DNA of 64,000 nucleotides from the NCBI GenBank assembly GCA_036262055.1, contig DATAJP010000002.1, forward strand, positions 1,074,177 to 1,138,176, read 5' to 3'. The position numbers and the translations under genes are program-made. Origin of the DNA: Ignavibacteria bacterium (lineage in GTDB: Bacteria > Bacteroidota > Ignavibacteria > Tepidaquicellales > Tepidaquicellaceae). Shown one piece after another: positions 47,183 through 55,791 of the stretch; positions within the stretch are counted from its first letter, which is position 1; the number at the start of each line of letters is the position of its first letter. Below the pieces are notes generated by a model. It was not told where the DNA came from and did no database searches. It worked only from the letters and a program-made list of their open reading frames with translations.

Positions 47183-48034
47183 TTAGTAATTTATTACGCC
47201 GTTTACATGCTTGGTCTTATCAAATATTACCCCCTGAGAATTTATCACGGTTTCATGACATACATAACAAGAGTTAATAGTCATAAATGAAAAATGGGGA
47301 GGTGTAAACACACCTTTTGTTCTTGGTGTAGGGTTGCCCGTTACCGGGTCTCCATGACACGAACCACAAACCACACTGTTTGGATTTGTCCAGACTCCTG
47401 CAGCAGTCAGATTGCCTTCTTTAAAAGTGCCATGACAATAAACATTTGAGCATGTTGCTGTATTTCTGTCCCATTGAGGATCAGGTGTAATATTTCCTCC
47501 TATTGAAGCTCTTGAAAGCGGTCCAAAATTAATTTCAGCAATCCCATTCGGGTTATCGCCAATATGGTTCGGGTCACTGAACCCATCCAAAGCTGTATGG
47601 CATTCATTACATCCCACCGAAGCAGAGAATAAAGGTGTTCTATGCAGCTGGTGAACACCTACTCCGATATAAGTTACCGATGTATCTCCATTTAATGCTT
47701 TGGGCGGACTTGAATGTTCGCTGTTCCCATGACAAAGCCGGCAATTTTGAGGTCCTCCGCTTCCTGTATGGCAGCCAAGACAATTAGAACCCGATGTGCC
47801 GCCTTTATAATCACCACCATGGCATGTTTTGCATTGAGTTAAATTCCACTGCTTATTATCAAAAATATATTTACCGTGAAAATTACTTGAAGAAGGATTT
47901 GCCCACCCGTCAGGGTGAGTATCAATATCCGGCGCTAAAGTAGTATTATTATTAAGCTCACTGCAGCCCTGATAATTAAGCGTTATGGCTATCAGCGCCA
48001 TACATATTCCATAAAATAAAAATAACTTTTTCAT
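47183..48034 (-). CDS. Multiheme c-type cytochrome lipoprotein
   Basis: A 283-aa protein with a lipoprotein signal (NYQGC, Cys near 24). Heme sites are six CxxCH (CKTCH, CLGCH, CRLCH, CNECH, CGSCH, CYVCH) plus one CSNVYCH of the C-x4-CH type. The last, followed by CGSCHG, resembles the paired C-x4-CH/CxxCH domain of Geobacter-type multihemes. It should be anchored in the outer membrane or facing the periplasm. It is the distal gene of the minus-strand cytochrome operon. Confidence 0.85.
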   Translation of the reverse strand: MKKLFLFYGICMALIAITLNYQGCSELNNNTTLAPDIDTHPDGWANPSSSNFHGKYIFDNKQWNLTQCKTCHGGDYKGGTSGSNCLGCHTGSGGPQNCRLCHGNSEHSSPPKALNGDTSVTYIGVGVHQLHRTPLFSASVGCNECHTALDGFSDPNHIGDNPNGIAEINFGPLSRASIGGNITPDPQWDRNTATCSNVYCHGTFKEGNLTAAGVWTNPNSVVCGSCHGDPVTGNPTPRTKGVFTPPHFSFMTINSCYVCHETVINSQGVIFDKTKHVNGVINY

Positions 48035-48053
48035 AATAATTAAAATTTATTTT

Positions 48054-53287: not shown

Positions 53288-53694
53288 ATCTCAGTATATA
53301 TCTGGATTGTATTTTTTTCTAAATTATTTCCGGGTCATAGTTCATAAAATACTTTTGCGATAATGATATCAGATTCTTGTTTAAAAAAATATTTTACAAA
53401 ATTTATATTTTAATTTTTAAAATTAGATTTCTGCAGACAATATACAAACAAAAAAGTTACACAGATATGCATTTGTCCAATTTTTTTCTATGACATTTGT
53501 CATATTTTAATACGATAAATGTCATATTTGTAAGTGACTTAAATCATTCACAATAATTTAACTTTTACTTATATTTATATGAATAAAATGGAAGATGAAT
53601 AGTTAATATTTTATTAATAATTTTACGAGTTAGAAAAGATTTTTTATAACACGAATGAAAAAATTAAATCTAACAAAATTTTGGAGTTAACATT
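53288..53694. promoter_or_regulatory. Divergent cytochrome promoter with tandem Crp/Fnr-type operators
   Basis: The 407-base region between two divergent cytochrome operons contains TATGAC-ATTT-GTCATA (53489-53504), a perfect dyad identical in its half-sites to the one at 46325-46340. A weaker TACGAT-AAAT-GTCATA (53511-53526) starts 22 bases later. The plus-strand gene at 53695 has TTGGAG upstream. No other structure is evident. Confidence 0.7.
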
Positions 53695-55791
53695 ATGAAA
53701 CATTTAATTACAATTTTGTTCTTATTTGTTTTTTGTTCAGGTGTAACTTTTGCACAGCCAAGAGCAAAGATAGTCACTCAATACGTTACTCCGCAAATGC
53801 TTGCAAGCACTCCCGGCTTAACGCAAGACTCAACTGTTTCCTCAGGATTAAATACTGTTGCTAAAGGCACATTTGTATATCTGAGAGCATGGAACTGGGG
53901 AGATACTTCAAGTATCACAAATGCAAACTGGACATTAACTCAAAAACCCGCCGGCTCGAGTGCATCAATTTCTACAATCACCGGCTTGTCATGGTGGGCA
54001 AAATTCAAAGCAGATCTTACCGGAACATATGAGATAAGTGTATCTATGACAACTACCACAGGAACAAGAGATACCATAACAAAAATTTATGCAAGCACAT
54101 ATGTAGGCACAGGAGGTTTTGATAACGTTGCTGCTCAATATCCGAACTGTATGTCATGCCACGGCTCAACGCCTAAGTTTCAGGATATATTTAACCGATG
54201 GAAAGATTCCAAACATGCTACAACTTTTAAAACAAACATAACTTCGGGACCTTCTTCTTATGGAATAAATCAATTCAAGCTGCACACACTTGGCTATGAT
54301 CATAATATTTTTGCAGAGAACAATGGTTTTGATGATAAAGCGCGCCAATTAGGCTGGGTATGGAGCAGTTTTTCGCCTCCTAAGCCGGCTAATTGGGATT
54401 CTCTGAAAAACCGTTTTTCACAGCTTGTTGCATTTGCAAATGTTGGTTGTGAAAGCTGTCACGGAGCAGGAAGCGAGCACGTTCTCGGAGGCGGTGACAC
54501 AATGAAAATTCAAAAAAGTGTTGATGAAGGCAATTGCGGAAAATGTCATGATGCTTCCGCAAGCACTCCGCAATTTGCACAGTTCAAAAATTCTCTGCAC
54601 TCTGATGTTATCTGGAGCAGTTCGTTTGCACAGAACAATAACGGAACAAATAATTTGGATAACTGCATAAGATGTCACGACGGTAACGGATATGTGAACT
54701 ATACAAAAGGTGTAGGAACAAACACTAACGGTTTCACAAAAGCAAAACAGGAAATGATAGCATGCGCATCGTGCCATGACCCTCACGGAAACTCCAACCA
54801 GTTCAGTTTGCGGAACAGGCCTTCAAATGCGGATACACTTGCAAATGGTTTCCATTATACAAATGTAGGGAACGGAATAGTTTGTATGGATTGCCATAAG
54901 TCCAGAAAAAATTCATTAACCTATGTCAATACCAGAGTTACTTCTTCGACATGGGGACCGCATCATTCAGGTCAAACGGATGTTTATCAGGGACAAAATG
55001 CAGCTATGTTTGCGGGTCCGTATCAGTCAACAGCACACAAAGAATTTCTTGTCGGAGCATGCGTAAGATGCCATATGGCGCCTACAGATACTTTGAATCC
55101 TGCCAACAGAAATAAGGTCGGGGATCACAGTATGAGTATGCATAATCCCGAAACAAATTTTGATAATCTGAGCGGATGCCAGACCTGCCATTTTGGTAAA
55201 ACAAGATTTGACCAATTTATTGCCCCGCAGGACTATGACGGAAATGGATTAACCGAAGCGTGGCAAAAGGAAATAGACGGATGTTTAAAGAATCTTAGAC
55301 TTCAGCTCCCTCCGGTTGGAGTTGATTCGGTTGCATGGCAATTAGTCGCGGCGGATTCCAACAATGTTACATTAAGAAAAGCATATTTTAATTATTTGCT
55401 CATATATGAAGATGGAAGCCGCGGTATGCATAATCCTAAATTTGCAGTGGATGTTTTACTCAAGTCAAGAAATGCTCTTGTAGGAATCATGCCTGTTTCA
55501 ACCGAGATTCCATTGAGATATGAAATGTCACAAAACTATCCGAATCCGTTCAATCCTGTAACTAAATTTAATATCTCAATAGCAAAAGCAGGGAACGTAA
55601 AAATCGTTGTATATGATATAACAGGAAGAGAAGTAACGGTTCTTTTAAACAATGTTCTGAATCCCGGCACATATAACGTTGAATGGAACGCAACGAACTC
55701 ATCAGGACGTTCGGTCAGCAGCGGAGTTTATTTTTATAAGATTGCTGCCGGTAGCTTTGTCGATGTAAAGAAAATGATGTTAATAAAATAA
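53695..55791 (+). CDS. T9SS-sorted octaheme c-type cytochrome
   Basis: A 698-aa secreted protein. The signal peptide is about 1-20 (ending TFAQP), and residues 25-150 look like an Ig/PKD-like beta domain. Heme motifs follow between about 150 and 505: CMSCH, CESCH, CGKCH, CIRCH, CASCH, CMDCH, CVRCH and CQTCH (eight). Residues 615-698 are a type A T9SS domain (QNYPNPFNPVTKFNI, YDITGREVTVLL, SGVYFYKI). A heme protein carrying this tag should be exported through the type IX system and exposed on the cell surface, the position expected for a terminal extracellular electron-transfer protein. Confidence 0.9.
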   Translation: MKHLITILFLFVFCSGVTFAQPRAKIVTQYVTPQMLASTPGLTQDSTVSSGLNTVAKGTFVYLRAWNWGDTSSITNANWTLTQKPAGSSASISTITGLSWWAKFKADLTGTYEISVSMTTTTGTRDTITKIYASTYVGTGGFDNVAAQYPNCMSCHGSTPKFQDIFNRWKDSKHATTFKTNITSGPSSYGINQFKLHTLGYDHNIFAENNGFDDKARQLGWVWSSFSPPKPANWDSLKNRFSQLVAFANVGCESCHGAGSEHVLGGGDTMKIQKSVDEGNCGKCHDASASTPQFAQFKNSLHSDVIWSSSFAQNNNGTNNLDNCIRCHDGNGYVNYTKGVGTNTNGFTKAKQEMIACASCHDPHGNSNQFSLRNRPSNADTLANGFHYTNVGNGIVCMDCHKSRKNSLTYVNTRVTSSTWGPHHSGQTDVYQGQNAAMFAGPYQSTAHKEFLVGACVRCHMAPTDTLNPANRNKVGDHSMSMHNPETNFDNLSGCQTCHFGKTRFDQFIAPQDYDGNGLTEAWQKEIDGCLKNLRLQLPPVGVDSVAWQLVAADSNNVTLRKAYFNYLLIYEDGSRGMHNPKFAVDVLLKSRNALVGIMPVSTEIPLRYEMSQNYPNPFNPVTKFNISIAKAGNVKIVVYDITGREVTVLLNNVLNPGTYNVEWNATNSSGRSVSSGVYFYKIAAGSFVDVKKMMLIK

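Follow-up and report, generated by a model that had tools for sequence, protein, structure and literature searches.

The 64,000-nucleotide stretch of DNA analysed here (the window) comes from an uncultured relative of Ignavibacterium, with a genome of 2.87 Mb in four contigs. Six of its open reading frames, genes A to F, were found where a preliminary description made from the sequence alone had placed them. We read this locus as an extracellular electron transfer module with a surface reductase of the OcwA type exported by the type IX secretion system (T9SS), and put the probability of this reading at about 0.74; within it we infer the electron steps, the surface location, the direction of flow, the acceptor and whether regulation is positive or negative. 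The new part of the locus is gene F, encoding a T9SS-sorted protein of the OcwA type.

Genes E, D, C, B and A lie in that order on the minus strand, separated by 36, 16, 4 and 19 bp. As they share a strand and the gaps are confined to 4–36 bp, they are likely to form a single operon. Gene F diverges from E, with 407 bp between them. Shuffled versions of the same proteins contained on average only 0.01–0.12 heme motifs, and a chance origin of the motifs was therefore rejected. The preliminary description had proposed a NapC-type cytochrome with 18 sites, four-heme, 14-heme and lipoprotein multiheme cytochromes and an outer-membrane barrel in one operon, divergent from an octaheme protein with a T9SS sorting domain, and this layout was borne out in all its parts. 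The kinship of F with OcwA as its closest solved relative, the nine hemes of most F homologues and the shared regulatory sites were not part of that description.

Gene F (53695..55791, plus strand) encodes a three-part protein, consisting of a PKD-like domain, an OcwA-type core and a T9SS type A C-terminal sorting domain (CTD). The CTD occupies residues 608–698 (55516..55788, plus strand). Residues 615–695 match PF18962 and TIGR04183 above the curated cut-offs, and residues 608–698 align with the CTD of PorU (6ZA2) with Z 10.3 over 89 residues at 2.4 Å, a match that ties behind OcwA (VIA). A Sec signal is present at the N-terminus. Of 88 F homologues fetched from across the class, 87 have the sorting domain and the exception is truncated by a contig end; all 87 homologues with a complete 3′ end thus carry it. 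Invariant residues in the CTD of this family run from QNYPNPFNPxT through the C-terminal Lys. The genome encodes SprA (829.6 bits, in a 2206-aa frame), seven proteins of the PorV family above cut-off, and at least 150 T9SS sorting domains. F thus combines a Sec signal and a type A CTD with a translocon encoded by its host, and is predicted to be exported as T9SS cargo. The open literature, subscription papers being outside this coverage, yielded no multiheme cytochrome reported to be exported by T9SS and no paper that links T9SS to extracellular electron transfer. In some relatives (loci L143 and L144) D is adjoined by another protein, distinct from F, with nine hemes, about 530 aa and what looks like a T9SS tail; F may therefore not be the sole T9SS-sorted cytochrome.

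The multiheme core of F (residues 134–596; 54094..55482, plus strand) is related in sequence and fold to OcwA (PDB 6I5B; Costa et al. 2019, PMC6703420), the nine-heme protein that serves Thermincola potens JR as terminal reductase at its surface. OcwA reduces minerals, shuttles, hydroxylamine and, slowly (about 1 per minute), nitrite, and two of its hemes, 2 and 5, are high-spin (PMC6703420). A profile of 27 F homologues matched OcwA with E 4.6e-18 and the undecaheme cytochrome 6QVM with E 3.2e-17, both ahead of NrfA. OcwA was also the best structural match to the core (Z 10.5, 330 residues, 4.1 Å, 22% identity; VIA), and 6QVM gave Z 9.6 over 339 residues at 4.4 Å (VIA). The structural match to OcwA, made with an uneven model of F, agrees with the sequence profile. 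The C-terminal part of F, its GxHN motif included, resembles NrfA and eight-heme nitrite reductases. At the N-terminal end, residues 19–136 (53749..54102, plus strand) make up a PKD-like β-sandwich domain, which aligns with collagenase PKD domains with Z of about 9 over 84–85 residues at 2.3–2.5 Å (VIA-align).

F contains eight CXXCH motifs and lacks CXXCK. With eight CXXCH motifs in place of the nine of OcwA, it is classed as a derived relative of OcwA and not as OcwA. Alignment places the lost motif at heme 2, where residues 193–197 of the window protein (54271..54285, plus strand) read QFKLH, retaining the His. Among 115 full-length F homologues, 98 have nine CXXCH motifs, 9 lack heme 2 and 8 have altered spacing at heme 1. 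Most homologues are therefore nonahemes, and the octaheme state of F is derived. Octahemes occupy separate positions in the tree, and a single origin, tested with six octahemes from the order as one clade, was rejected (AU p = 0.0015). Either heme 2 has been lost repeatedly, or the motif has been regained by recombination. The authors of the OcwA study proposed that losing either heme 2 or heme 5 turned nonahemes into octahemes (PMC6703420).

The kinship with NrfA raises the possibility that F works at the surface on a soluble acceptor such as nitrite, hydroxylamine or another oxyanion, with electrons from the conduit, rather than as a reductase of minerals or electrodes. Its fold falls within the NrfA/octaheme family, as the matches of its C-terminal part indicate, and OcwA itself reduces both nitrite and hydroxylamine. 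However, nitrite turnover by OcwA is very slow, F has no CXXCK motif, an NrfH-like/NrfA-like pair is already encoded elsewhere in the genome, and the heme 2 site, one of the two open sites of OcwA, has been lost in the window protein. We therefore regard a soluble acceptor as unlikely, though it is the strongest competitor to an OcwA-type role in reducing minerals or electrodes.

Genes A to D supply the conduit with which F would work. Gene A (47183..48034, minus strand) encodes a multiheme cytochrome with six CXXCH motifs, one CX4CH motif and a lipobox-like LNYQGC; it is the outer-membrane lipoprotein cytochrome of a Pcc conduit, with surface exposure predicted, and the counterpart of IALB_1837. 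In one Melioribacteraceae genome (locus L141) the gene in this position, after B, is fused or expanded and encodes 874 aa with 28 CXXCH motifs. Gene B (48054..49316, minus strand), 4 bp from C, encodes a c7-type periplasmic cytochrome with a signal-peptide N-terminus and 14 CXXCH motifs, the counterpart of IALB_1838. Its 14 hemes are retained in distant homologues. Among solved structures, B comes closest to the cytochrome c family protein 3OV0 (E 2e-13), which we take to be a Geobacter nanowire-type cytochrome. Gene D (50636..51214, minus strand; counterpart of IALB_1840) encodes a periplasmic c554-like tetraheme cytochrome (PF13435), in which three motifs are CXXCH and one is CX3CH.

Gene C (49321..50619, minus strand), the counterpart of IALB_1839, encodes an outer-membrane β-barrel of 432 aa with no Cys. 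Its AF2 model (mean pLDDT 82.8) shows a barrel with about 22 strands and no plug. The structural matches were AlgE, Occ porins and the barrels of TonB receptors (Foldseek, VIA), and are uninformative on function since large barrels all look alike. MtrB was absent among the matches listed, which does not exclude a barrel of the MtrB type. An ordinary nutrient channel was considered and rejected, as a plug is absent and cytochrome genes surround C in 61 named loci. These loci from Ignavibacteria were collected with an alignment of the barrel, and some lie on truncated contigs; C is present in 61/61, D in 57/61, B in 56/61 and A in 54/61. D adjoins C in 57 of the 61, and A adjoins B in 54.

The same arrangement has been described in Ignavibacterium album. 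In the pcc cluster IALB_1837–1840, as given by Shi et al. 2014 (PMC4245776), the first gene encodes an outer cytochrome whose motif is atypical, followed by genes for a 14-heme periplasmic cytochrome of 400 aa, a porin and a second periplasmic cytochrome. A, B, C and D agree with these in order, size and heme number, the properties by which they were compared, sequence not being among them. The preliminary description had likened the barrel and its cytochromes to Mtr/Pcc conduits, and the published order and heme counts of the I. album cluster match. On this account A to D are the Pcc conduit already described in I. album, and novelty does not lie in the barrel conduit. PCC-type clusters have also been reported in relatives from anode communities (PMC7399161). 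As the classical Pcc outer cytochrome has its counterpart in A rather than in F, F would be an additional terminal reductase.

Gene E (51251..53287, minus strand) encodes an 18-heme cytochrome with a NapC/NrfH anchor, having 17 CXXCH motifs and one CX4CH. Its N-terminus matches PF03264 above cut-off (35.1 versus 24.1 bits), and the NrfH model TIGR03153 with E 1.5e-16, which is under the cut-off of that model. A sequence search of the PDB gave no match. E is likely to be a quinol oxidase, judging by this anchor. Relatives usually have a second quinol module beside E, in which a 640-aa 18-heme NapC-like cytochrome is paired with a cytochrome b561 (L071, 8072–10824, and equivalents); the pair resembles a split quinol oxidase of the CbcL type. 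A search for this module in the window genome gave only a weak 28% fragment match, on a five-heme protein. The window lineage is trimmed in this respect, the second module being absent from its genome. Elsewhere the genome encodes an NrfH-like/NrfA-like pair (L295) and a five-heme protein.

In the mechanism that we propose, E would draw electrons from menaquinol at the inner membrane, and D and the 14-heme wire B would ferry them over the periplasm. B, lying within or against barrel C, may then hand them to the surface lipoprotein A. F would enter the periplasm by its Sec signal, and its hemes would be attached there with the aid of the Ccm proteins encoded downstream. After folding in the periplasm it would leave through SprA by way of T9SS, using its CTD, and act at the surface as a terminal reductase of the OcwA type.

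To examine co-occurrence, 245 genomes of the class that were at least 85% complete were sampled. Barrel C was found in 158 of these: F and the barrel occurred together in 125, the barrel alone in 33 and F alone in 1, with neither in 86. The robust part of this result is the nesting of F in conduit-bearing genomes, as genomes with F hardly ever lack the barrel. Joint absence is exemplified by genome G035, in a genus whose other sampled members at the same completeness have both. F stands beside C in varied arrangements, including those of distant families: directly upstream on the same strand (L069, L080), divergent (L070) or upstream (L164). Across the phylum, 57 of the 58 genomes with F matches at E ≤1e-20 belong to this class, and in the single genome outside it the matching protein also ends in a tail resembling the sorting domain. 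For Ignavibacteria at large we favour, with some reserve, the view that an OcwA-type terminal reductase partnered with the Pcc conduit is as a rule exported by T9SS.

A gene for a CRP/FNR-family protein (46439..47146, plus strand; PF13545, PF00027) converges on gene A and is a candidate regulator of the module. The protein matches the NCBIfam Fnr model with E 5.8e-21, under its cut-off, and has relatives in the PDB. Between E and F are three FNR-type sites at 22-bp intervals (53490..53547), starting at 53490 (ATGACATTTGTCAT), 53512 (ACGATAAATGTCAT) and 53534 (GTGACTTAAATCAT), and a pair with the same spacing lies upstream of the CRP/FNR gene (46304..46339). The perfect palindrome ATGAC-N4-GTCAT occurs five times genome-wide; two of these occurrences are in the window, one between E and F and one upstream of the CRP/FNR gene. 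When pairs were counted at spacings of 13 to 44, with one mismatch permitted in the partner site, spacing 22 gave 3 in the window and 16 in 40 loci of relatives, and no other spacing gave more than 1. Many of these pairs in relatives sit upstream of F. The placement of the palindromes, together with the 22-bp pairs in the window and in relatives, points to a likely common CRP/FNR regulon, acting through these putative sites. The regulator beside A would then probably govern both divergent units through the 22-bp-spaced sites, which fits induction at low oxygen.

These sites bear also on the direction of flow. Surface cytochromes might take electrons from Fe(II) or from another cell and pass them inwards to the respiratory chain and a cbb3 oxidase, the genes of which lie nearby (59172–63992); porin-cytochrome systems do serve Fe(II) oxidizers (MtoAB). 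However, the NapC/NrfH-type anchor of E is typical of quinol oxidation, the FNR-type sites suggest an anaerobic programme, and the cbb3 genes form a separate, divergent unit. Inward flow therefore appears very unlikely, and an outward electron wire with a T9SS-exported OcwA-type reductase as its predicted surface component is well supported by the sequence.

Several observations weigh against this reading. The co-occurrence count is uncorrected for shared ancestry, many members of the same family have F away from the conduit, and the 33 genomes with a barrel and no F indicate that other partners can serve the conduit. The structural search with C cannot tell an electron conduit from other large barrels. 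The window protein lacks heme 2, one of the two high-spin hemes of OcwA. Finally, the AF2 model of F is moderate and uneven (mean pLDDT 67.1, and 40–60 in the heme region), so that the sequence profile bears most of the weight for kinship with OcwA. A periplasmic electron carrier with a vestigial sorting domain, suggested by the periplasmic location of NrfA and similar relatives, is nevertheless highly improbable given a translocon in the genome and a CTD that is intact, nearly universal and invariant from QNYPNPFNPxT to the C-terminal Lys. The quinol-to-surface wire of the preliminary description is upheld in that E has a NapC anchor, the CTD is found in 87/88 homologues, SprA and PorV are encoded, the core matches OcwA and F is nested with the barrel; its use of T9SS for the outer cytochrome needs amendment, as the classical outer cytochrome is A.

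The surroundings of the module include further genes. Downstream of F (55842..59082, plus strand) are genes for a TPR-like lipoprotein, CcmE and CcmF, the last two concerned with heme attachment; genes of these three kinds lie near the conduit in many relatives. Another perfect FNR-type site, 6 kb past the end of the window (L291, 1585–7175), precedes a cluster encoding a PAS histidine kinase, a response regulator, a second CRP-family regulator and a copper-transporting ATPase, which probably serves the cbb3 oxidase. On the other side, at 42711–45350, is a marginal MACPF/perforin match (21.3 bits against a cut-off of 21.5), followed by a small lipoprotein-like gene.

If our reading is correct, T9SS would be a third route by which diderm bacteria bring a fully hemylated multiheme cytochrome to the exterior, besides lipoprotein anchoring and type II secretion. 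T9SS mutants are predicted to lose the terminal reductase, and the cargo exported by T9SS would then have to be a folded protein carrying covalently attached hemes. This would join two fields kept apart in searchable papers, T9SS and extracellular respiration, and would place a reductase of the OcwA type within a large class of diderm bacteria, linked by co-occurrence to an outer-membrane conduit. The signature of a CTD together with heme motifs could be used to find electron-exchanging Bacteroidota. Repeated loss of heme 2 among F proteins would amount to a natural example of the proposed nonaheme-to-octaheme transition, and close homologues with and without heme 2 make that published idea testable.

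The module can be set against several known systems. The Pcc cluster of I. album resembles A to D in gene order and in content, with an atypical-motif outer cytochrome, a 14-heme periplasmic cytochrome of about 400 aa, a porin and a further cytochrome of the periplasm; a NapC 18-heme gene and a T9SS-sorted cytochrome, both present in the window, go unmentioned in the available passages of that paper (PMC4245776). The Mtr system of Shewanella likewise combines a barrel with cytochromes on both sides, but has the decaheme MtrA where the window has a 14-heme c7-like partner, and an MtrC-type reductase where the window has an OcwA-type one; the window barrel has about 22 strands. NrfA and the octaheme nitrite reductases share with F its C-terminal part, including the GxHN motif, whereas F lacks CXXCK and carries a T9SS sorting domain, and their kinship is more distant than that of OcwA. 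OmhA, the undecaheme cytochrome of Carboxydothermus ferrireducens (PDB 6QVM; PMC7829351), is the second-best multiheme match to F over the same region, but has 11 hemes, belongs to a Gram-positive host and has no T9SS domain. OcwA, the best match to F residues 134–596, is a surface reductase of the same nine-heme family; it differs in its Gram-positive host and in being without the PKD-like and T9SS domains, and the heme 2 that it has is lost in the F of the window.

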